From positions 62,001 through 126,000 of the forward strand of contig CAMYID010000023.1 of the NCBI GenBank assembly GCA_947258435.1: DNA of 64,000 nt, in the 5' to 3' direction. Of the stretch, positions 49,847 through 62,165 are shown piece by piece; position 1 is the first letter of the stretch, and every line of letters starts with the position of its first letter. The position numbers were made by a program, and so were the translations under genes. The DNA comes from an uncultured Alphaproteobacteria bacterium. Its GTDB lineage: Bacteria; Pseudomonadota; Alphaproteobacteria; UBA11222. The notes under the pieces were generated by a model. That model ran no database searches and had not been told where the DNA came from. It saw only the letters and a program-made list of their open reading frames with translations.

Positions 49847-52228
49847 TCAACGCTCGGCAAAGGTTTCCTTAACCCGCGCGGCGAGCTGTTTCAGCGTGAA
49901 CGGCTTGGGCAGGAACAAATAATCCTCGACCGTTTCATCGCTGTCGCGGAACGCATTTTCCGCATAACCGGATATGAAAATGGCCCGAATTCCGGGGCTT
50001 TTCTGCTGAATGATTTTCATCAGCCGCGCGCCGTCCATGCCCGGCATGACAACGTCGGAAATCACCAGATCAATTTCGTCCGCACGCGTCTCGACAATTT
50101 CAAGCGCCTGATCTGGCCCGTCGGCCTCAAGCACCGTATATCCCTTACCCGTCAGGGCGCGCGATGCAAACGCACGAACCGGATCCTCATCTTCCACCAG
50201 AAGAATAACCCCATTGCCCGTTAGATCTGCGCTGACTTCCACCTGAGCTTCTGCACCATCGGATTGCACCTCTTCTTCGGCATAGACAGGCAGGTAGATA
50301 CGGAATGTCGCGCCATCGCCAACCTCACTCGACACATGAATATTGCCGCCCTGCTGTTTGATGATGCCATAAACGGTGGACAGCCCGAGCCCTGTCCCCT
50401 TCCCGACTTCTTTCGTGGTAAAAAACGGTTCGAATATCTTTCCGATAACCGCTTTGGGGATACCGGGCCCATCGTCTGAAACCTCAATCATCACGCAGTC
50501 GCCCGGCGGCATCCAGCTATGGTCGAGCTGACGCGCCTGCTCGGCGGATATATTCGCTGTACGGATCGACAGACATCCTTTATTGCCCGCCAGTGCATCA
50601 CGGGCATTGACGGCCAGGTTGATGATGACATTTTCAAGCTGCCCCTGATCCGCCTTCACCTGCCCCAGATTGCGCCCATGTGTCATCGTCAGTTCGATTT
50701 GCTGACCCAGCAAGCGCCGTAACAGGTTATGCAGCTCCGCCAGCATATCTGTCACGGAAATGACGGTGGGCTGCAGCGTCTGTTGCCGCGAAAAGGCCAG
50801 AAGTTGCCGCACGAGATTGGCAGCGCGATTGGCATTCTGTTTGATCTGGTGGATATCGTTAAATGACGGGTCGCCCGCATCATGGCGGCTGAGCAGCAGG
50901 TCGCTGTAACCGATGATCGCTGTCAGCAGATTATTAAAATCATGTGCGATACCGCCTGCCAGCTGGCCTACGGCCTGCATCTTCTGGGATTGCGAGAATT
51001 GCAGCTCCAACTGCCGTTGTTCGGTCGTATCAATCAGATATAAGACGACGGACGCATTACCGGATTCGCGCAGCGGTGAAATATAAAGCTGCGCCGAACG
51101 CGCTTCACCCTGATTATGCAATTCAATATCGATATGTTGCCCGGTCGTCTGTAGCCGCGCAGCGTCGCTTATCCGGTGCCGCACATCCGCAACGTAGGTT
51201 TCATCAACGATCGAAAGAAAATCGTCACCACTGCTAAACAGCATCCCGAAATTCTTGAAAAATGCGGAGTTCGATTCAACGACATGACCATGCTGATCGA
51301 CAATGACAATACCGACAGGCGCAATATCAAAAAGACGCAGAAAACGTGCTTCAACTTCACGTAATTGCGTCAGATCCGCTGACAATTGCGCCCGCAGGTC
51401 ACGCATGACAAGTTGCAGAGAGCGTGCGCCATTCTCAGACTCCTCGCGAATCCGATACAGTGCCGATACCGGTATACGCTCGCCATCCGACGAAACAATG
51501 ATAGTACGTTCGATTCCGGTATAGCTGAGGTCGCGCTGGTCATTATTCGATGACCAGAAAACAGAACCGTCCTCGAATATATCGGCAATTGTTATCTTTC
51601 CTTTATGGACCTCTTCCGGTGATACACCGATCCATTCGGAAAATATTGCATTGGCAAATTCGATCGTACCCGCCTCATTGATAATTCCGATCCCCAGCGG
51701 GGCAGAGTCAATCACTTCAAGGATCTGCTTGTATTTTTGCGGTTCAGGTGACGCGGAATTCCGGGTTCTGTCATAGCGCTGAATACGCCACACACATAAT
51801 GGACTGGTCTCCGAAACTGGCGCAACGCTGACAGCAACGCGATGAAGGGTGTCCGCATGGACAAATGACATGACTTCTTTCGCCGGACGGCGCTCGGCAA
51901 TCGCCTTCTGCAAACGGAAGAGCCGCTCATTGCAATTCTCCTGCCGCGCCAGAATTGCCGACAATGCGGGCGGCGGGACGATCGACTGATCGATCCCGAA
52001 CTGGGCGTAGTAGCCTGCATTCGCGTAACACACCTCATCAGCTTCACCGGTGATCAGGATTGCGTCCTGGCTGTTATCGACAAGCTCGGCAAGCACGCCA
52101 TAATCGAACCCGGCAAGCCTGAAATGTTCGCGGCGGGCGGCCTCCTTGGTCAGGATGCGCCCCACGACACTCCCTTTCAGCAGTCCGCGCAGTCCCGCTA
52201 CACCTTTCTGATCGGATAACAACCCCAT
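49847..52228 (-). CDS. cckA: hybrid histidine kinase CckA (cell-cycle kinase), without membrane segments
   Basis: A 793-residue hybrid kinase. Three PAS-like domains come first (about 45-150, 170-290 and 305-420), then a HisKA domain with GQLAGGIAHDFNNLLTAIIG (His about 429) and KQNANRAANLVRQLLAFSRQ, an ATPase domain (SDDGPGI, GTGLGLSTVYG), and a receiver with phospho-Asp in ISDVVMPGMDG (about 725). The H-box is the CckA/NtrB-like form. CckA passes phosphate through ChpT to CtrA and CpdR. Unlike Caulobacter CckA, no transmembrane helix is visible at the N-terminus, even with the TTG at 52294. The ATG at 52228 has AAAAGG upstream. It is the last gene of the flgB-flhB series. Confidence 0.93.
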   Translation of the reverse strand: MGLLSDQKGVAGLRGLLKGSVVGRILTKEAARREHFRLAGFDYGVLAELVDNSQDAILITGEADEVCYANAGYYAQFGIDQSIVPPPALSAILARQENCNERLFRLQKAIAERRPAKEVMSFVHADTLHRVAVSVAPVSETSPLCVWRIQRYDRTRNSASPEPQKYKQILEVIDSAPLGIGIINEAGTIEFANAIFSEWIGVSPEEVHKGKITIADIFEDGSVFWSSNNDQRDLSYTGIERTIIVSSDGERIPVSALYRIREESENGARSLQLVMRDLRAQLSADLTQLREVEARFLRLFDIAPVGIVIVDQHGHVVESNSAFFKNFGMLFSSGDDFLSIVDETYVADVRHRISDAARLQTTGQHIDIELHNQGEARSAQLYISPLRESGNASVVLYLIDTTEQRQLELQFSQSQKMQAVGQLAGGIAHDFNNLLTAIIGYSDLLLSRHDAGDPSFNDIHQIKQNANRAANLVRQLLAFSRQQTLQPTVISVTDMLAELHNLLRRLLGQQIELTMTHGRNLGQVKADQGQLENVIINLAVNARDALAGNKGCLSIRTANISAEQARQLDHSWMPPGDCVMIEVSDDGPGIPKAVIGKIFEPFFTTKEVGKGTGLGLSTVYGIIKQQGGNIHVSSEVGDGATFRIYLPVYAEEEVQSDGAEAQVEVSADLTGNGVILLVEDEDPVRAFASRALTGKGYTVLEADGPDQALEIVETRADEIDLVISDVVMPGMDGARLMKIIQQKSPGIRAIFISGYAENAFRDSDETVEDYLFLPKPFTLKQLAARVKETFAER

Positions 52229-52307
52229 CTGGCCTTTTCCCGCAGTTAAACCGATATTCTCATAAGCGTAGGCCGGCTTGCCGCCGATTGGCAATCGCCA
52301 GTCCCCG

Positions 52308-53366
52308 TTACTTCCGCAGGCCCATCACATAACCAATCACTTCGGCGACTGCCTGATAATGTTCGGGCGTGATTTCCTGCTCAAGTTCGACAGAAGCGTG
52401 CAAGGCGCGCGCGAGCGGCGGGTTCTCAACAACCGGCACGTCATTTTCCTCTGCAACCGTACGGATACGCAGAGCGATCTCATCGACCCCTTTCGCCACG
52501 CAAACCGGCGCATTCATTTCCATATGCTCGTATTTCAACGCGACGGCAAAATGGGTCGGGTTCGCGATTACAAGCGTAGCTTCAGGAACCGCGGCCATCA
52601 TCCGGCCACGGGCGCGTTCCATTCTGATGCGCTGAATGCGCGCCTTCACCTGCGGATCGCCATCCGTCTGTTTATGTTCGTCCTTGATTTCCTGCCGGCT
52701 CATCCGCTGTTTCTTCAGAAATTCCGACCGTTGATAGAGAAAGTCCGCCGCTGCGATTAACCCCATAATCGCAATTGCTCCCCCAAACATTTTTAGTGCT
52801 GCGACTTTTACATAATTCAGCATCTCGGCGGGTGCATATGTCATCAGCGTGTCCAGCCGGTCGCGCTCGGGCCAGATAACCAGGATGACAACAGCCGCAA
52901 CAACCGCCAGTTTGAGCAGACCTTTGACAAACTCCATGACAGACTGACTGGAAAATAATCTGCCAAACCCCTTGGTCAGCGAAATCTTGCTGAATTTCGG
53001 TTTTATTTTTTCAGTCGTCAGAACCGGTTTCGCCTGCAACACACTGCCCGCAAGCGCGGCAACGACAAGCACCAACAAAGGCAACCCGAGCCAACTGACC
53101 AGCCCCGTCACAACGTCGCGGCCGACAAGCGCAAGATTTGAGGCATCAGCAGGAATTTGCCCCGCCTGCGCCAGATAGACGGAAAGATTGTCACTCAACT
53201 GCAAGCCAAGCTGGCCCGCGAATACCGCGATCGCAAGCCCGCCGCCGGCCAGCATGGCAAGGTGGCGAATTTCCTGACTGCGGGCCACATCGCCCTTTTT
53301 CTGGGCGTCTTCGAGTTTTTTCTGTGTCGGTTCTTCTGTTTTTTGCGACTTATCCTCTTCTGACAT
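52308..53366 (-). CDS. flhB: flagellar type III export protein FlhB
   Basis: A 352-residue export-gate protein. The N-terminus MSEEDKSQKTEEPTQKKLED is typical, four membrane segments follow, and the cytoplasmic domain has the autocleavage site in VIANPTHFAVALKYE (Asn about 268). It switches export from rod/hook to filament proteins. It begins 10 bp after fliR and lies 79 bp upstream of cckA, on the same strand. Confidence 0.97.
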   Translation of the reverse strand: MSEEDKSQKTEEPTQKKLEDAQKKGDVARSQEIRHLAMLAGGGLAIAVFAGQLGLQLSDNLSVYLAQAGQIPADASNLALVGRDVVTGLVSWLGLPLLVLVVAALAGSVLQAKPVLTTEKIKPKFSKISLTKGFGRLFSSQSVMEFVKGLLKLAVVAAVVILVIWPERDRLDTLMTYAPAEMLNYVKVAALKMFGGAIAIMGLIAAADFLYQRSEFLKKQRMSRQEIKDEHKQTDGDPQVKARIQRIRMERARGRMMAAVPEATLVIANPTHFAVALKYEHMEMNAPVCVAKGVDEIALRIRTVAEENDVPVVENPPLARALHASVELEQEITPEHYQAVAEVIGYVMGLRK

Positions 53367-53376
53367 ACCCTCGCTC

Positions 53377-54141
53377 CTATCGTGCGATCAGAAGATTTGC
53401 GACGCCGGCTTCGAAATAATCGAGATACCAGAGCATCAGGCTGGAAAAAATCATCCCCATAATCATAAAACCGAGCAGAATTTGCCCCGGCACGGCGATG
53501 AAGAATATCTGCACCTGTGGCATGAGCCTGGCCAGCAACCCGATACCTGTATTGAAGATAATACCAAAAACAATGAAAGGCGCCGCAAGCTGGATTCCCA
53601 TCGCAAATGCCTGCCCGACCGTTTCGGTGGCAAGCGCCGCAAAACTTGCCGGCGCAGGCAGACGTCCGGGCTGGAAAAGCTGATAGCTGTCATGCATCGC
53701 ACCGACCAGCAGATGATGCAGATTTGCCGCCAGGATGAGATTGATCCCCACAAGGGTCAGAAACGTACCGACTATCGCTGACTGGCTCCGCTGCGAGGGG
53801 TCAAAGCCCTGGGCAAAGCCAAGTCCTGTCTGAAACGCGATGACAAGCCCCCCCAAATGCAACGCCATCAACAGTAACCGCGTCACCCCGCCGATAAACA
53901 GCCCGGTCAACACTTCTGCCCCTATCACGGCGACAAAACCGAAAGCGGTTACAGGAATGGAGGGCAACAGATCCTTTACCAGAGGATACAAAACCGCCGT
54001 CAGTGAAAAAGCGATGCCAAGCCGCACCCAGGGCGGAACCGACGCCTCGCCAAAGGCGGGCATGAAAATCACCATGCTGCCGATGCGGCTGAAAACAAGA
54101 AAGAAGCCGAAAATTTGGGCTGGGACCAGTTCTAACTGCAT
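53377..54141 (-). CDS. fliR: flagellar export protein FliR
   Basis: A 254-residue membrane protein of the export gate. Evidence is FGFFLVFSRIGSMVIFMPAF, EVLTGLFIGGVTRLLLMALH, LGGLVIAFQTGLGFAQGFDP and the C-terminal hydrophobic MIMGMIFSSLMLWYLDYFEA. With FliP and FliQ it forms the helical gate complex. It lies 64 bp after fliQ and 10 bp before flhB. Confidence 0.96.
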   Translation of the reverse strand: MQLELVPAQIFGFFLVFSRIGSMVIFMPAFGEASVPPWVRLGIAFSLTAVLYPLVKDLLPSIPVTAFGFVAVIGAEVLTGLFIGGVTRLLLMALHLGGLVIAFQTGLGFAQGFDPSQRSQSAIVGTFLTLVGINLILAANLHHLLVGAMHDSYQLFQPGRLPAPASFAALATETVGQAFAMGIQLAAPFIVFGIIFNTGIGLLARLMPQVQIFFIAVPGQILLGFMIMGMIFSSLMLWYLDYFEAGVANLLIAR

Positions 54142-54205: not shown

Positions 54206-54469
54206 CTACAAGCCGATTATGCGTTCGGCGATCCGGGCCATAAGCCCGTCAAGCACCTGCCCCATGAACGGCAGGAAAATCAGCAGCGAAAGAAAAATCG
54301 CAATGATTTTCGGAACGAACGTCAATGTCATTTCCTGGATCTGCGTCAGCGCCTGGAACAAGGCAATAATCAGCCCCACCCCAAGACCGACCAGCATGAC
54401 AGGCGCAGAAACCTGCAACATCACATAGATCGCATCGCGCCCGACATCGAGGACATCAGCAGGCCCCAT
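54206..54469 (-). CDS. fliQ: flagellar export protein FliQ
   Basis: An 87-residue protein with two hydrophobic hairpin helices (APVMLVGLGVGLIIALFQAL and FVPKIIAIFLSLLIFLPF) around TQIQEMTLT, the classic FliQ form. It packs around FliP/FliR in the export gate. It lies 25 bp after fliE. Confidence 0.96.
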   Translation of the reverse strand: MGPADVLDVGRDAIYVMLQVSAPVMLVGLGVGLIIALFQALTQIQEMTLTFVPKIIAIFLSLLIFLPFMGQVLDGLMARIAERIIGL

Positions 54470-54494: not shown

Positions 54495-54824
54495 TCATAT
54501 CGGCATTTTCAGAATATCCTGATAGGCCTGAACGACACGATCGCGGACCGCGACAACGGTTTGCAACGTCATTTCCGCGTTATTCATAGCGGTGACAAGA
54601 TCCACCATATCCGCCTTGCCGTTGATCGCGTCAAGCGATACGGACTCCGCCTTGCGGTTCGCATCGACCGCAGCGCCAACCTTGTCTTCCACAAGCTCCG
54701 TAAATGTCGGGCCTTTGGGTGCTGCCCCGGCGGCAAGACCGTCGCCATTTTCCTCCAGCGGCCGGCTTGCGGTCTGCGCATAGGCGGAAGCCGCCTGCGC
54801 CGCATTAGTTCCCAAAACACTCAT
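54495..54824 (-). CDS. fliE: flagellar hook-basal body protein FliE
   Basis: A 109-residue protein with an Ala/Gln-rich start and the conserved C-terminal region DLVTAMNNAEMTLQTVVAVR then VVQAYQDILKMPI. It joins the MS ring to the rod. It lies 22 bp after flgC and before fliQ. Confidence 0.95.
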   Translation of the reverse strand: MSVLGTNAAQAASAYAQTASRPLEENGDGLAAGAAPKGPTFTELVEDKVGAAVDANRKAESVSLDAINGKADMVDLVTAMNNAEMTLQTVVAVRDRVVQAYQDILKMPI

Positions 54825-54846: not shown

Positions 54847-55260
54847 CTAGCGGCTATTGAGAAGGTCGATGGTTTTGACCAGCATATTCTGCGCTGCTTT
54901 CAGCGACGCGATATTAGCTTCATAGCTGCGCTGAGCCTGCTGCATATCCATCGTCTCCAGCATGACATTCACATTGGGCAGCTTCACATATCCTTGCGGG
55001 TTGGCCGCGGGGTGCAGCGGGTCATATTTCTGCTTGAACTCGCTTTTGTCCTCAACGACCTTGCGGACATTAACCAGTTTCGCACCCGAGAGCCGGTCGA
55101 CCTCATTGCGGAAGGTCACCATTTGCCGCCGATACGGATCATCATCAGGACCTTTGGCCAGTGACTGCGAATTGGCAATATTTTCCGAGATCACGCGCAT
55201 GCGTGTGCCTTGCGAACGCATGCCGGAAGCGGATGTCTGAATTGCGAGGTTAAGATCCAT
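54847..55260 (-). CDS. flgC: flagellar proximal rod protein FlgC
   Basis: A 137-residue rod protein. Evidence is IQTSASGMRSQGTRMRVISE, NIANSQSLAKGPDDDPYRRQ, and the C-terminal VNVMLETMDMQQAQRSYEAN then ASLKAAQNMLVKTIDLLN. The N- and C-terminal helices form the rod core. It follows flgB by 41 bp. Confidence 0.96.
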   Translation of the reverse strand: MDLNLAIQTSASGMRSQGTRMRVISENIANSQSLAKGPDDDPYRRQMVTFRNEVDRLSGAKLVNVRKVVEDKSEFKQKYDPLHPAANPQGYVKLPNVNVMLETMDMQQAQRSYEANIASLKAAQNMLVKTIDLLNSR

Positions 55261-55301: not shown

Positions 55302-55712
55302 CTATCCGCGCCTTCCCAGCGCGATCCGAAGTAAACTAGTCTGCTTGCGATAAATATTCGTGGTCATTTCATATTCGACCTGCGTACGGCCGAGTTTCAT
55401 TGTCTCTTCAGCAATTGAAACCGAATTTCCCGATCCATCCATCTCAACGATCGGCGCCTCGGTTGTCTTGAAATCAAATAGCTGTGATGCGCCGCTCTTG
55501 TTAACCATATGGCGCGCGTTGGTAACCTGCATACCGACTGAATGGCTTTGATTTTCCAGCATTTTACGAAAATCGACGGGCTTGAGTTCGCGTGCCCGGA
55601 AACCCGGAGTGTTGGCGTTTGCGATATTTTCCGACACCACTTTCTGGCGGGCCGACAGCCATGCCAGCTTCGTCCGAATGGCCGAAAATATGGGAAATGC
55701 GTTCGCGCTCAT
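55302..55712 (-). CDS. flgB: flagellar proximal rod protein FlgB
   Basis: A 136-residue rod protein. The N-terminal helix KLAWLSARQKVVSENIANAN leads to TPGFRARELKPVDF, and the C-terminus MKLGRTQVEYEMTTNIYRKQ completes the rod fold. It is the first gene of the leftward series flgB-flgC-fliE-fliQ-fliR-flhB-cckA. The control region upstream contains two CtrA boxes and a possible leftward sigma-54 promoter. Confidence 0.96.
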   Translation of the reverse strand: MSANAFPIFSAIRTKLAWLSARQKVVSENIANANTPGFRARELKPVDFRKMLENQSHSVGMQVTNARHMVNKSGASQLFDFKTTEAPIVEMDGSGNSVSIAEETMKLGRTQVEYEMTTNIYRKQTSLLRIALGRRG

Positions 55713-55764
55713 CGCCTTTGGGTCAACTCACCGATCAATTTGAGGCCGGGCAGGTCTGGAATCC

Positions 55765-55780
55765 TGGCAGGTTCATTGCG
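55765..55780 (+). promoter_or_regulatory. sigma-54 promoter pointing to fliO-fliP
   Basis: TGGCAGGTTCATTGCG matches the sigma-54 consensus: GG and GC are separated by exactly 10 bases, with TGGCA and TTGC intact. Transcription would start near 55791, about 150 bp before fliO. Sigma-54 drives many flagellar genes in alphaproteobacteria. Confidence 0.65.
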
Positions 55781-55791
55781 CCGATTGTGCC
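55778..55791 (-). promoter_or_regulatory. Possible sigma-54 promoter pointing to flgB, overlapping the rightward one
   Basis: On the minus strand GG-N10-GC is present with GGCAC at the -24 element and GC at -12, but TT before the GC is missing. The -12 GC dinucleotide (55778-55779) is shared with the rightward promoter, so the two could not be used at once. Weaker than its partner. Confidence 0.4.
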
Positions 55792-55800
55792 CCAGGCAAT

Positions 55801-55815
55801 TTAATAAACTCTTAA
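55801..55815. promoter_or_regulatory. CtrA-binding box 1 (TTAA-N7-TTAA)
   Basis: TTAATAAACTCTTAA is a perfect match to the CtrA consensus. It lies 89 bp upstream of flgB and just upstream of the possible leftward -24 element, and downstream of the predicted rightward start site. This suits activation of flgB and interference with the rightward sigma-54 promoter. Confidence 0.75.
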
Positions 55816-55840
55816 TCGCATTTTTTACCCGACTGCCCCC

Positions 55841-55855
55841 TTAACCCCCCGTTAA
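55841..55855. promoter_or_regulatory. CtrA-binding box 2 (TTAA-N7-TTAA)
   Basis: TTAACCCCCCGTTAA is a second perfect match, exactly 40 bp from box 1. It lies 84 bp upstream of fliO and could act for fliO-fliP, or together with box 1. An additional single TTAA half site occurs at about 55920. Confidence 0.75.
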
Positions 55856-55939
55856 GCATATTCGCGGCACATTGAGGCGGTCGCCGCGGCCAGATATTCG
55901 CCGCGTTCGATGCGCGCGGTTAAATGGCCCAAGGGACCT

Positions 55940-56269
55940 ATGGAAAGTTTTGATTATTTGCGTTTCCTTCTGGCGCTCATCTTCGTGCTGGGGCTTATCG
56001 GCTTTTGCGCCTGGCTTGGAAAACGCGCGGGGTTAACGCCCAGAGCGACGAAAAAAGGCAGTACCGGCCATCGACTGGCGCTGCTGGAAGTCCGCCCGAT
56101 CGACGCAAAACGCAAGCTCCTTCTTATTCAGCGTGACGATCGGCAGCATTTACTGATGGTCGGCGGCGATACCGACCTTGTGGTCGAACGCAATATTTCA
56201 GACAGCGCCCTGTCGGACGGCCGCACTACCGTCCCCTCTTCCGAGTTGAATGATGATAACCAAGCGTAA
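55940..56269 (+). CDS. fliO: flagellar export protein FliO
   Basis: A 109-residue FliO. A single N-terminal membrane segment (FLLALIFVLGLIGFCAWLGK) is followed by a small cytosolic barrel with RLALLEVRPIDAKRKLLLIQ and DRQHLLMVGGDTDLVVE, the FliO pattern. It helps FliP assemble into the export gate. ATG 55940 has AAGGGA upstream; an upstream alternative start at 55910 is less likely. It overlaps fliP by 20 bp. Confidence 0.92.
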   Translation: MESFDYLRFLLALIFVLGLIGFCAWLGKRAGLTPRATKKGSTGHRLALLEVRPIDAKRKLLLIQRDDRQHLLMVGGDTDLVVERNISDSALSDGRTTVPSSELNDDNQA

Positions 56270-57038
56270 CTCCCTGCACCTGTTTCTTGCCCTTGCGGGT
56301 CTGGCAACGATCCTGCTGCTTCCCGATGGCGGGGCACAGGCGCAGAATATTACCATCGATTTGGGGGAAGATGCCGATAGCGAATTGCTTGGCGGAACAA
56401 ACTCACTGACCGGGCGTCTGATACAGCTTATCGCCTTTATCACGATCCTGAGCATTGCGCCGGGTATCCTGGTGACGGTGACCTCATTCACGCGAATTGT
56501 CGTGGTCCTGTCCCTTTTACGCAGCGCGCTGGGAACCCAGACCTCGCCCCCCAATACAGTGATCATTTCCCTTGCACTGTTCCTGACGGCCTTCGTCATG
56601 GCGCCAACCTTCAGTCAGGCCTATGAGCAAGGCATCAAACCGCTGATGGAAGACAGCATTGATGAATCCGAAGCGTTTGACCGCACCGTTGCCCCGGTGC
56701 GCCAATTCATGTTGTCGCAGGTCCGCGAACAGGATCTGCGCCTGTTCATCGATCTGTCGAAATCCGAAACCCCGCAAACCGCCGCGGACACACCGCTTCA
56801 TGCGCTGATCCCGGCATTTATGGTTTCAGAACTTAAACGGGCATTTGAAATCGGCTTTCTGATTTTTATACCCTTCGTCGTCATCGACATGGTGGTTGCC
56901 TCCGTGCTGATGTCGATGGGTATGATGATGCTGCCCCCGATCATGATCTCCCTGCCCTTCAAGCTGATCTTTTTTGTGCTGGTCGACGGGTGGAGCCTGA
57001 TTGCAAGCAGCCTTGTACAAAGCTTCGGTGCGGGATAG
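56250..57038 (+). CDS. fliP: flagellar export protein FliP
   Basis: A 262-residue export-gate protein. It has a cleavable signal peptide (LALAGLATILLLPDGGAQAQ), then SIAPGILVTVTSFTRIVVVL, SLLRSALGTQTSPPNTVIIS, and FEIGFLIFIPFVVIDMVVAS then MMMLPPIMISLPFKLIFFVL. Five FliP molecules form the core of the gate with FliR and FliQ. It is in an operon with fliO, divergent from flgB, while fliQ and fliR lie on the opposite strand. Confidence 0.97.
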   Translation: MMITKRNSLHLFLALAGLATILLLPDGGAQAQNITIDLGEDADSELLGGTNSLTGRLIQLIAFITILSIAPGILVTVTSFTRIVVVLSLLRSALGTQTSPPNTVIISLALFLTAFVMAPTFSQAYEQGIKPLMEDSIDESEAFDRTVAPVRQFMLSQVREQDLRLFIDLSKSETPQTAADTPLHALIPAFMVSELKRAFEIGFLIFIPFVVIDMVVASVLMSMGMMMLPPIMISLPFKLIFFVLVDGWSLIASSLVQSFGAG

Positions 57039-57319: not shown

Positions 57320-60300
57320 TCAGGAGTTCACATCGGCTGCTTTTGTATCGCTGCGGTAATTCGCCAGAAAGTCCTGCAAGGTATCGATACCGGCAATGGT
57401 TGAGGCAAGCTGGCGGAATGCCACCCCGCTTGCATCGGGCGATCGGGTCAGAACATCGAATGCTTCCGCATAACGCCCTATCGTCATCTTGGGCCCGTAA
57501 CGCCCCTTAAGGGCATCGAGCGCACGCTGTTGACCGGCAAGGGCATAGGCAATTGATGCACGCATAACCTGCCCCTGTTCAATGACAGTCAGATTTGCAG
57601 GTATGCGCCACCGGTCACCCAGCACAGTTTCCATCGCACCCGCCGCTGCGTTCCAGTTGTCAGATTCCCAATGAATATCCGCACGCAGCAGTTGAGCCTC
57701 CGGCGTCTCGATGCCGTCGATCAGATCAAGCGCTGTCTGAAACTCTTCCATTTCAGTCAGCGCGCGCGCTTCAAGCAGCAATCGCGTCACGTTCAGATCA
57801 CGCGGAAGCCGGGTCTGGCGCGTCCTGCGAATTGTTTCCAATGCGGCTTCGGGCTGCTGATCGAGAAGCTGAATAACCGCCAACTGCGCCGCAACCTGCG
57901 CCTTGGCAGTGCCTGCCAGCCGATAACGCACCTGATGGTCCAGCAATTCGCCAGCTTCGGCCAGAAGGTCAACAGCAACCAGCCGTTGCCCCAACCTGCG
58001 GATCATTTCATCGCCATTCTTGCCGACGGGTGTAAGCTCGCGAAAATCATAGTACAATGCCAAAGCCTTGACCGGCGGCAGATCGTCGGCGTCGCCATCA
58101 AGATACAATCCCGAGAATACCTCCCCCATGCGCATGGCAATCTGTTTGGAGCGCAACGCATCTGGAAAGTTCGTCACAGCGCTACGCATAATGGTGAGCC
58201 CGTTGCGGTACTTTTTCACGTCGACATATCTTTCGCCCAACGCTTGCAGCACCCGCAGCTCGATATCGTCGCCGCGCCATGCATAACGCAGTTTTTCGAG
58301 CCCGTCGGTCGTTTCCTCAGGGCTCAGGGAGCCAAGCCGGCCAAGCAACTCCAGCCTGGCAAGCCGGGCGGGCACTTCTGTCGGCCTGTAATGGCGCGAT
58401 TCCGCCATATTATAGGCGGCAATCGCATCATCGCTATTGCCAAGCCCCTCCGCCACGAGACCGCGCAGCAGCCACAGCTTGCTTTCCAGCGCAACCGGCA
58501 GTTCGCTGGGCAGTACATTTTCCATCTCCCTGCCCGCGCGGTCGAATTCACGGCGGTTGATTGCGGCTTCCGCCATCAGAAGGTACAGCTCGGCAGCGGT
58601 ATCGCCATCATATTTACCGATAACACCATAGCCGCGATCAAAATTCTTGAGTGCTTTCTGCCAGCGCTGCTGCTGCGCGAAAATTGCCCCGCGCCACAGG
58701 GATGCATGCGGGTCATCGCGCAATCCGGAATGTGCGAGTTTTTCCCCGGCATCGCTATAGCGACCCATATAATATTCTGCGACACCCATCAGCCCGCGAT
58801 GATATAAATCCTTATCCGCATTGCTGTCTTCGGCGACCATCAGCTGCAGCATGGCGCGCGCCTCGGCTGCAAATCCGTGCGACAGATAATAACGCGCCAT
58901 CGTCAAGCGCTGTGCGCTGCGCTTTTCCCCTTCGCTTTCCTGAATCCCGGCTGTAATCTGACGACGTACCGTACGGAAATTGGCGCTGCTTCCCTGCTGC
59001 CAACTGGCAAAATCCATAAATACCGGTGAGCTATAGCTGTCACTTTCAGAGGCAGCCTTGCCAATCTCGCGCGAAACGAAGTTTGACATCGACAGCCCAA
59101 GCGGTGTGCTGATCGTAATGGCCCCAGGTCGGCTTTGAACCGCCAGTTGATCGGAGAAGGGAATAATCGCAGCCCCCTGACTTGTTGCCAGGATCTCAAA
59201 ATCGACATATCGCCGCGGCGTGACAACCGCATGGGATACTTCAGAGACTGGCGAAACCAGAATGGTGTCACCCGCTTCAGGGTCCCTGACTGCAAACGGC
59301 CCCTTCGGGGAAAGCGCCTTGATCAGCACATGCCCGTTCGGTTCCGCATTCGGTTCACGCATAACGCGCAGCAAACCTGCGGGCGTAACATAGTTGCGTA
59401 CAAGATCAACCTGCCAGACCGATTGCTGCCGGCCGACATTCACCATCGTGCCTGCCGCCACGTCAAACACCAGCACGGTTGCCGCGTCATGGGCAATTTG
59501 CTTCCCCTGGGTAATCAGATTACCGCGCACAAGCGACATGATCGACATATCGACATCCACCTGCGCGTCAAATACGGCCCACAAAGTGTTGCCGCGCATA
59601 AAGACCGCCGCCGCACTTTTCGTCGTGAAGGGAACGCTGATCCGCACCCCTTCGGGGATCTGGCGCATGCGCAGTTCAATCTGTTGCTTTTCCGGTGCGG
59701 CTGGCTGTATTGCAGTGACATCGGCCAACAGGTCGGCGACAGCTTCGCGGGTAGCATTTGCAGGCTGTGCCTCGCCTTCGCCATCCGCGCTTGCCTGTTG
59801 CGGCGCCACCTCGTTTTTGCCGGCAGCATCCTCAGGATCGACGGCATCCTGTTCCGGCAGCGCAATCTCTTCAGTTTCCCTGGCAGATGGCGGCACTTCT
59901 TCTGTTGTCTCTGCAAGCGTCAACTCACTATCAGGCCGCGGTGCCTGTTCGTCCTTCAGCAGATCGACAACAATCCGATTATCGATTTGCAACTCGCGCA
60001 GCCCGAATTCCGCTTTGAGCGGCACTGAAACAGTCTTTCCCGCTTCATCCAGAAAGGGTCGGCCCACATAGTCTGAAAGCCTGTCTTCCACCTGCGCAAA
60101 ATTCGCGCTGAAGGGTTCATCGAAGCTGACGGTAAGTTTTTCGTCCGAAATACGGGTATCGAATGCAACAGGTGTGGGCCAGTCGAACACAATACGCAGA
60201 TAGTCGGGGTGTTCCCCCGCACGGACATTGATTTTCAACTGTGCGCTTTCATCTGCTTCATCCGCATCGGCTGCCTGATACAGATCGACAACAACCTTGT

Positions 60301-60664
60301 TGCCGACGCGGAAGTTCCGCACCACTACTTCCTGCTGCAAGGGAAAGAAAACAGCCCGCCCATCGGCAGCCTGTTCCGCAGATGCCACATAGTCCCCGAT
60401 CAGCGCCAGGGTGGGCGAAAACTCCGCAACAAATTCTTCGGCAAAGCGCAGTTCGACCGTTCCGGGGGTTTCAACCGTCTCCACCTCCACCGGTTTATCC
60501 CAGTCAAATACAATGCGGGCATAGTTTGGGTGTATGCCGCCGCGCACCACGACAGTCTCCTGCGCCACAGCCGATACAGCCGACATCGCCACCATTGCGC
60601 CCAGCCATACTGCCCAAAACAGCAACCAGATTTTCTGCCTGTTCGGCCTAACCGAGACGCACAT
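57320..60664 (-). CDS. large secreted protein with tandem beta domains and TPR repeats, in the motor operon
   Basis: A 1114-residue protein. Residues 1-34 form a signal peptide ending SAVSAVAQE. Two similar beta units follow (about 38-128 and 144-238), each starting with a HP-x-Y-x-RIVFDW motif and ending with VVVDL, like AMIN-type domains. A long acidic, Pro/Ala/Glu-rich linker comes next (about 240-330), then another beta region. From about residue 600 to the end it is helical with TPR-like pairs (for example MGVAEYYMGRYSDAGEKLAH, LRGLVAEGLGNSDDAIAAYN). Its ATG is five bases after the MotB-like gene, so it is co-translated with motor genes. A periplasmic scaffold for the motor or peptidoglycan is inferred; Campylobacter PflA, a beta-plus-TPR motor protein, is a structural analogy only. 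Confidence 0.8.
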   Translation of the reverse strand: MCVSVRPNRQKIWLLFWAVWLGAMVAMSAVSAVAQETVVVRGGIHPNYARIVFDWDKPVEVETVETPGTVELRFAEEFVAEFSPTLALIGDYVASAEQAADGRAVFFPLQQEVVVRNFRVGNKVVVDLYQAADADEADESAQLKINVRAGEHPDYLRIVFDWPTPVAFDTRISDEKLTVSFDEPFSANFAQVEDRLSDYVGRPFLDEAGKTVSVPLKAEFGLRELQIDNRIVVDLLKDEQAPRPDSELTLAETTEEVPPSARETEEIALPEQDAVDPEDAAGKNEVAPQQASADGEGEAQPANATREAVADLLADVTAIQPAAPEKQQIELRMRQIPEGVRISVPFTTKSAAAVFMRGNTLWAVFDAQVDVDMSIMSLVRGNLITQGKQIAHDAATVLVFDVAAGTMVNVGRQQSVWQVDLVRNYVTPAGLLRVMREPNAEPNGHVLIKALSPKGPFAVRDPEAGDTILVSPVSEVSHAVVTPRRYVDFEILATSQGAAIIPFSDQLAVQSRPGAITISTPLGLSMSNFVSREIGKAASESDSYSSPVFMDFASWQQGSSANFRTVRRQITAGIQESEGEKRSAQRLTMARYYLSHGFAAEARAMLQLMVAEDSNADKDLYHRGLMGVAEYYMGRYSDAGEKLAHSGLRDDPHASLWRGAIFAQQQRWQKALKNFDRGYGVIGKYDGDTAAELYLLMAEAAINRREFDRAGREMENVLPSELPVALESKLWLLRGLVAEGLGNSDDAIAAYNMAESRHYRPTEVPARLARLELLGRLGSLSPEETTDGLEKLRYAWRGDDIELRVLQALGERYVDVKKYRNGLTIMRSAVTNFPDALRSKQIAMRMGEVFSGLYLDGDADDLPPVKALALYYDFRELTPVGKNGDEMIRRLGQRLVAVDLLAEAGELLDHQVRYRLAGTAKAQVAAQLAVIQLLDQQPEAALETIRRTRQTRLPRDLNVTRLLLEARALTEMEEFQTALDLIDGIETPEAQLLRADIHWESDNWNAAAGAMETVLGDRWRIPANLTVIEQGQVMRASIAYALAGQQRALDALKGRYGPKMTIGRYAEAFDVLTRSPDASGVAFRQLASTIAGIDTLQDFLANYRSDTKAADVNS

Positions 60665-60669
60665 GGATG

Positions 60670-61443
60670 TTACCTGTCTTCATGAATAACGAGTGCCAGT
60701 TGGCCCACAGCGGGCCCCTCACCAGCCATAACATGCCCATAGGGCAGAATGGTCCGCCGCAAGCCAGCTTTTTTTAATGCAGCCACCATCGCCGATGCCC
60801 TGGCGATACCAAGCCGCCAGTACCAGCCATGATCAAATGCAGCATTTCTGTCTTCTGTATGTCCCACCGCAATGGTCGCATGCACCTCGACACGGTTGGA
60901 AATATCGCGCAAGGCCTCGGCAAGGATGGCAATTGCCAGCTGCCGCTCGGGTAAAATCGTGTGACTGCGGCTGCCAAACAGTAAATCCGAGGGGAACAAC
61001 GCCGATAGACGCCCCCCCTCACGCCTGATGACCAACTGCACCAAGACAGGATCGTTACGAAATTTCTCGACCAGGATGGTCTGCAGATAGGTAAGGCTCT
61101 CCCCCTCCGTCCGGACCTGCCGCAGCGGCGTCTGCTGCGGCACTTGCCGGATAAGAGCTGTGTCGTGACCTGCCGACAATTCATCGCTCAACGACGACAC
61201 GATAGACTGCCATGCTTCGGTCTGCATCACCGACATGCCATAGAGCATCACAAAGAAAGACAGCAGCAACGCCATCAGATCAGCGAATGTAATCAGCCAG
61301 CCCTGATCGATGCGCACGATACCCTGCCGCGCATCGGATCCGGGTACGGGATAAATTGCGGGCTGACAGGATGCCTTTTCCCCGGATTGGGATGCTTTGG
61401 CGTCGGGGGTTGCATTGGCCCGGGGGATTGCATTGGTTGTCAT
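60670..61443 (-). CDS. MotB-like stator protein with the conserved Asp
   Basis: A 257-residue protein with one membrane helix (residues about 48-70, WLITFADLMALLLSFFVMLY) that carries the proton-binding Asp at position 55, as in MotB. The periplasmic OmpA-like domain contains VGHTEDRNAAFDHGWYWRLG and IARASAMVAALKKAGL. It would anchor the stator to peptidoglycan and conduct protons with MotA. No motA gene is in the window. It follows the Asp-less paralogue by one base and precedes the TPR gene by five bases. Confidence 0.85.
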   Translation of the reverse strand: MTTNAIPRANATPDAKASQSGEKASCQPAIYPVPGSDARQGIVRIDQGWLITFADLMALLLSFFVMLYGMSVMQTEAWQSIVSSLSDELSAGHDTALIRQVPQQTPLRQVRTEGESLTYLQTILVEKFRNDPVLVQLVIRREGGRLSALFPSDLLFGSRSHTILPERQLAIAILAEALRDISNRVEVHATIAVGHTEDRNAAFDHGWYWRLGIARASAMVAALKKAGLRRTILPYGHVMAGEGPAVGQLALVIHEDR

Positions 61444-61444
61444 G

Positions 61445-62107
61445 CTACGCCCCCTTGTCCGTCAGGCTGAAAAATGCCATCCGGGCCTTGGGCGAGGTGC
61501 CCGAAACAACACTGACAGCAATGTTGCGCGGCAATACGCCCCAGCGTTCAAATTCGTTGGCCAGTGCCATCGACTGCCGCATCGGGACGGGCAGAGGCAC
61601 CGCTTCCGCGATATTGCCGATGCGCATCGCATGAACGGTGATTTCCACAACCCCACGACCTTCCGCAGCCTGGGCAGACAAAGCCTGCGCCAAGCCCTGA
61701 ATCAGTGAAACAGCATCGGGTTTCAGCACCGCCGTTTTGGCGATAAACAGCTTATCGCGATCAAAATTGGCAAGCAGCACACCGCGAGCGGAGGAAACGT
61801 CCAGATCCGCCCAGCTTTCCGATGCCAGCAACCGGGTATGTATCTCGTTCAGCATCGCTGAATCGCGCAGAATATTACCGATTTTCGAGGGAACATACCC
61901 TTCAGGCGCGCGGAACTTTGAGCGCGCGAAGCTCTCGGTCAGACTGCTAACCGCAGAATCCACCTTGGAGGGATCACGCGTTGCGATGCTGTTCAGCATA
62001 ATGAAAAAAGCCAGCAGAATAAGAAACAGCGACAGAAATACAACGGTATTCTGCGCTGCGCCTGCCGCTTGCGGCTCCGTCTCCTGCTGTTGATATTCGT
62101 CTAGCAC
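61445..62107 (-). CDS. MotB-like protein lacking the membrane Asp
   Basis: A 220-residue protein with one N-terminal membrane helix (TVVFLSLFLILLAFFIMLNS, residues 21-40) that has no Asp or other acidic residue, so it cannot carry protons like MotB. The C-terminal region (VEITVHAMRIGNIAEAVPLP, then MRQSMALANEFERWGVLPRN) follows the layout of an OmpA-like domain but is degenerate. Start is GTG at 62107, supported by AAGGAG at eight bases. It is placed between motE and the Asp-bearing MotB-like gene, pointing to an accessory motor role. Confidence 0.75.
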   Translation of the reverse strand: MLDEYQQQETEPQAAGAAQNTVVFLSLFLILLAFFIMLNSIATRDPSKVDSAVSSLTESFARSKFRAPEGYVPSKIGNILRDSAMLNEIHTRLLASESWADLDVSSARGVLLANFDRDKLFIAKTAVLKPDAVSLIQGLAQALSAQAAEGRGVVEITVHAMRIGNIAEAVPLPVPMRQSMALANEFERWGVLPRNIAVSVVSGTSPKARMAFFSLTDKGA

Positions 62108-62165
62108 GCCTGACTCCTTACAATGAAAAAGTCACAATAAAAACAATAGGATTCCATCGTCCGAC

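Follow-up and report, generated by a model that had tools for sequence, protein, structure and literature searches.

Motility has long been known to be under CtrA control, and this is regarded as the original role of CtrA, so a tie between the two is not in itself new. At the divergent flgB and fliO genes of Caulobacter, a shared CtrA site represses flgB and activates fliO (Boyd and Gober 2001, in the account given in PMC6180460). At flgB2/fliI2 of R. sphaeroides, mutation has shown independent activating CtrA sites (PMC6180460). For Rhodobacterales, Brilli et al. (2010; PMC2877005) predicted that CtrA controls cckA and divL, and in Rhodospirillum rubrum ctrA, cckA and chpT adjoin flagellar genes, an arrangement that the authors say needs further attention (PMC12363192). 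Here we describe a divergent flgB/fliO region whose leftward gene series ends with cckA.

The window is a 64-kb stretch (G000:C23:62001-126000) of a 2.88-Mb alphaproteobacterial genome, here called G000; its features of interest are collected in Table 1. An initial annotation had pointed to two perfect CtrA boxes in the window, and these are confirmed: a pattern search for TTAA-N7-TTAA finds TTAATAAACTCTTAA and TTAACCCCCCGTTAA and no other site, both within the 227-bp gap between flgB and fliO. Dinucleotide shuffles of the whole window contain 0.31 such sites on average, and two sites anywhere occurred in 4 of 100 shuffles. The entire genome has 10 sites, including these two, and 45 copies of a mirrored control pattern; since that total does not exceed the chance expectation (about 14, extrapolated from the shuffled window), it is the location of the sites that carries the argument. 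The low genome total is what might be cited for reading the boxes as chance AT-rich matches, a reading that the position and pairing of the boxes, their conservation and their spacing specificity make scarcely credible; the spacing scan and the conservation described below led us to reject it.

Table 1. Coordinates of the control region and gene series in the window
Feature	Position	Strand	Evidence or remark
cckA, hybrid histidine kinase	49847..52228	-	PAS, PAS, HisKA, HATPase_c, REC (Pfam); alternative TTG start 52294
flhB-cckA gap, 79 bp	52229..52307	-	No CtrA box, no terminator-like site; candidate weak promoter
flhB	52308..53366	-	Pfam Bac_export_2
fliR	53377..54141	-	Pfam Bac_export_1
fliQ	54206..54469	-	Pfam Bac_export_3
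fliE	54495..54824	-	Pfam FliE
flgC	54847..55260	-	Pfam Flg_bbr_C, synteny
flgB	55302..55712	-	Pfam Flg_bb_rod, synteny
-10-like CACAAT, predicted flgB promoter	55784..55789	-	11 bp after box 1
CtrA box 1, flgB side	55801..55815	-	TTAAGAGTTTATTAA on flgB strand; pattern search, alignment, paired boxes in G002 and G003
CtrA box 2, fliO side	55841..55855	+	TTAACCCCCCGTTAA on fliO strand; pattern search, alignment, relatives
-10-like CACATT, predicted fliO promoter	55868..55873	+	12 bp after box 2; kept in G004
fliO	55940..56269	+	Pfam FliO just above cut-off, synteny; in-frame ATG also at 55910
fliP	56250..57038	+	Pfam FliP

Comparison with relatives had been proposed as a check, with loss of the boxes as the adverse outcome. 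Both boxes are kept in four genomes of the same family (G001, G002, G003 and G004), where the pair before flgB is 40-42 bp apart, and in an alignment of G000, G001 and G004 the TTAA half-sites are invariant amid diverged DNA. Across the Alphaproteobacteria, flhB regions from family-sampled genomes and 80 named loci gave 117 unique flgB-upstream regions. TTAA-N7-TTAA is found in 62 of these, with 72 sites in all where shuffling predicts 1.7; the sampled loci are related, so these class-wide counts are not independent. Of the spacings between 0 and 20, only 7 is strongly enriched; each of the others yields 1-9 sites in the same regions. Within 400 bp, 19 of 59 family-sampled regions have an exact box, versus 40 of 56 in the named set, which was ranked by FlhB similarity and has many Bradyrhizobium, Devosia and similar genomes; the low share in the family sample counts against the reading preferred below.

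The geometry of the two boxes resembles that of activator sites. In each case 26-27 bp separate the 5' base of the box from the start of the -10-like hexamer, which places that base at about -39 if transcription starts some 7 bp past the -10. On the flgB side the predicted -10 region, GGCACAAT, is retained in G001, and GAAAAT stands at the equivalent place in G004. A full CtrA motif at -39 activates in Caulobacter, and one at -14 represses (PMC4287350); since each box would fall near the activating register, the two look like one activator site per divergent promoter. A sigma-70 consensus scan gave no match between flgB and fliO and none ahead of cckA, and with fewer matches than in shuffles it is uninformative in this lineage. 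One GAATC lies at 55759, inside the predicted flgB leader.

CtrA might instead activate fliOP and repress flgB, in which case transcription of the flgB operon would depend on a different factor, for example sigma-54 with FlbD. The same gene pair in C. crescentus offers a precedent, in the account available in PMC6180460, and after box 1 a possible sigma-54-like GG-N10-GC (GGCACAATCGGCGC, found by eye) occurs in G000 and G001; this element is, however, lost in G004. Around the boxes on the flgB side the sequence across loci is TTAACCAT, and in 29 of the 72 boxes (e.g. L089, L106 and L083) a GGCA-N5-TGCC palindrome, which we take to be FlbD-site-like, follows at a fixed distance of 10-11 bp and perhaps represents a site of FlbD type that overlaps the -10. 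Of this palindrome the window retains only GGCACAAT / GGCACATT. What makes repression of flgB unlikely here is that each promoter has a box to itself, both boxes being in the predicted activator register and neither near -14, the position of repression (PMC4287350), and that flgB2/fliI2 of R. sphaeroides has an independent activating site for each divergent promoter (PMC6180460). Direct activation of both flgB and fliO by CtrA is, in our estimate, highly probable.

CtrA itself is encoded in the genome (G000 C4:405-1097; NCBIfam 426 bits, cut-off 350) and is 77% identical to a Caulobacter CtrA sequence. Upstream of ctrA lie a TTAA-N6-TTAA (TTAACTTTTGTTAA) and further TTAAC half-sites; a spacing of 6 has been described for Caulobacter ctrA P2 and for Magnetospirillum (PMC6180460). 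The conserved paired boxes, the enrichment of spacing 7, the predicted activator register, the encoded CtrA and the other exact sites in the genome together make CtrA control of the flgB/fliO region, of a kind already known, well supported at the sequence level. The initial proposal of CtrA sites upstream of the flagellar series thus holds: they are real and conserved, and lie in a predicted activator position.

The other eight exact sites in G000 lie before sciP, chpT, cpdR, divL, a PAS_5 gene, cysD, a YfiR-like gene and a glycosyltransferase gene. The sciP product scores above its NCBIfam cut-off; chpT and cpdR are best matches that score below theirs, and the YfiR-like gene was named on weak similarity. 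Boxes before the cpdR and divL orthologues recur in G001, G002 and G003, and those before sciP, chpT, PAS_5 and cysD orthologues recur in G001. The DivL-type kinase gene (L148:4968-7709, on G000:C22) has its box about 140 bp upstream and encodes a PAS-HisKA-HATPase protein with HISYQLRTPLN in the H-box, where Tyr replaces the phospho-His. Such a replacement is a hallmark of DivL; no DivL model appeared among the best 25 NCBIfam matches of this protein. Whole-window counts of GANTC are 2.4-fold depleted (107 versus 260 expected), as is expected with CcrM methylation, and both GcrA and DivK are present, DivK being 75% identical to the query sequence; a Caulobacter-type cell-cycle circuit is therefore likely in G000. 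From these sites the whole CtrA pathway appears to carry CtrA boxes, with cckA reached only via the flgB promoter. We place no reliance on a rough binomial calculation of how enriched the pathway is for sites, because the target set had been chosen with the sites already known.

The gene for a single-PAS_5 protein (L150:6248-6793) and cysD (L147:5406-6308), both in G000, stand behind exact boxes kept in G001 and are possible new CtrA targets. A MopJ identity for the PAS_5 gene is not claimed, as the match, at 30 bits, falls well short of the cut-off of 200.

The leftward order flgB-flgC-fliE-fliQ-fliR-flhB-cckA had been read correctly, as Pfam domains bear out, and it is conserved class-wide. 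Successive gaps from flgB to flhB are 41, 22, 25, 64 and 10 bp, and the flhB-cckA distance given in Table 1 takes the ATG at 52228 as the cckA start. An opposite-strand gene converges on the 3' side of cckA, making cckA the last gene of the series. Comparisons on the other side used the fliO ATG at 55940. Beyond fliP, and converging on it, lies a gene (57320-60664) for a TPR protein of 1114 aa that weakly resembles AMIN; many Alphaproteobacteria have this gene in synteny with fliOP. Two minus-strand reading frames beyond it (60670-62131) are MotB-like by eye.

The best NCBIfam matches of the kinase are both CckA models, named for the Brucella and Caulobacter types, at 716 and 538 bits; its residues 45-790 align to 87-867 of the 868 positions of the Brucella-type model. 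Judged by best match, this length-wide alignment and synteny, the equivalog cut-off of 1000 bits not being reached, the kinase is CckA, and the domain content upholds the earlier identification of cckA as the end of the series.

CckA normally has two N-terminal transmembrane helices (PMC6169604), and a simple hydropathy test finds N-terminal hydrophobic segments in most of 131 CckA orthologues. The same approach finds no N-terminal transmembrane helix in CckA of G000, G001, G002 or G004, and in G000 none even from the upstream TTG start. The alignment begins just ahead of the first PAS domain, and flhB leaves no space for a longer N terminus. About 10 other loci also lack the helices by this test, some perhaps through wrong start calls. 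In this family, then, the membrane anchor of CckA seems to have been lost, and the kinase is predicted to be soluble; we found no transmembrane-less CckA in the open-access literature searched.

Among family-sampled loci, 45 of 57 have cckA 3' of flhB and on its strand, and of the 47 with a flgB-flhB series 40 continue it as far as cckA. We also looked in the flhB-cckA gap for a CtrA box belonging to cckA itself and rejected the idea: there is none here and no enrichment elsewhere (2 in 109 gaps). Nor was a terminator-like site found in the 79-bp gap, which favours read-through, and it is plausible that CtrA drives cckA in this way from the flgB promoter.

It is also quite possible, if somewhat short of even, that CtrA controls the flagellar genes while cckA is transcribed almost solely from a constitutive promoter of its own, the gene order being inherited without a feedback function. 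The lack of box enrichment before cckA would fit this, as would a candidate promoter in the gap, TTGCCA-N18-TACGCT, noted by eye and conserved only between G000 and G001; but the sigma-70-like scan finds no promoter there, and in G004 only about 50 bp separate flhB from cckA. G003 (L255, G003:C115) also speaks for a separate cckA promoter, as it retains the box pair before flgB-flgC, followed by a recA-like gene. In the stretch of G003 that was read, fliE, fliQ, fliR, flhB and cckA were not found, and no close CckA was found in this fragmented assembly; the arrangement may be a loss, a rearrangement or a misassembly. The adjacency of flhB and cckA across most sampled families and the terminator-free gap argue the other way, and a meaningful contribution of the flgB transcript to CckA supply seems to us evenly poised.

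The reading that we prefer, divergent CtrA-activated promoters with probable read-through into cckA, is as a whole explanation likely. Positions 55713-55939 would form a pair of divergent early flagellar promoters. CtrA in its phosphorylated form would occupy box 1 at the -35 position of flgB and box 2 at that of fliO, and bring RNA polymerase to both promoters. Leftward transcription would cover flgB-flgC-fliE-fliQ-fliR-flhB and most likely continue, at least partly, into cckA. As CckA passes phosphate through ChpT to CtrA, such read-through would close a positive loop, in a genome that has CtrA boxes also at chpT, divL, cpdR, sciP and ctrA. The sites, their conservation and spacing specificity, the gene identities and the presence of CtrA are observed; CtrA binding, activation, start sites and read-through at flgB/fliO-cckA are what we infer from them. 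More tentatively, and less likely than not, this family may have its complete divL-cckA-chpT-ctrA phosphorelay, together with cpdR and sciP, under direct CtrA control, cckA being reached through the early flagellar operon and its product being anchor-less; transcription of the pathway would then form a closed loop, coupled to the building of the flagellum and working with no kinase anchored in the membrane.

A kinase gene placed class-wide after a CtrA-controlled early flagellar operon would give the idea of ancestral motility control a link at the DNA level. With cckA next to flhB, one can ask by experiment whether the amount of CckA is set by transcription of the flagellar genes, and the anchor-less CckA would be a natural test of the extent to which CtrA signalling needs membrane-bound CckA.

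Compared with known systems, the flgB/fliO control region appears ordinary in kind; what goes beyond the first reading is the pathway-wide set of CtrA boxes and the predicted soluble CckA. C. crescentus has the same divergent gene pair with a CtrA site in the gap, but a single shared one repressing flgB, whereas G000 has two boxes, each in a predicted activator register. In C. crescentus fliQ-fliR-flhB-cckA lies apart from flgB-flgC-fliE. The flgB2p-fliI2p region of R. sphaeroides is like that of G000 in that its flagellar promoters diverge and each has an independent CtrA site near -35; it differs in its partner gene fliI, in a 6-bp box spacing and in the 47 bp between its start sites, and PMC6180460 does not describe cckA as an operon member, whereas the series of G000 ends with it. 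Feedback of CtrA on its own phosphorelay is predicted both in Rhodobacterales and here; in Rhodobacterales it was tied to the absence of DivK (PMC2877005), which G000 has, and in G000, unlike that prediction, chpT, cpdR and sciP are boxed too and cckA would be reached via a flagellar operon. Rhodospirillum rubrum shares with G000 the association of cckA with flagellar genes, and relative to that report the adjacency of flhB and cckA has here been counted, at 45 of the 57 family-sampled loci.
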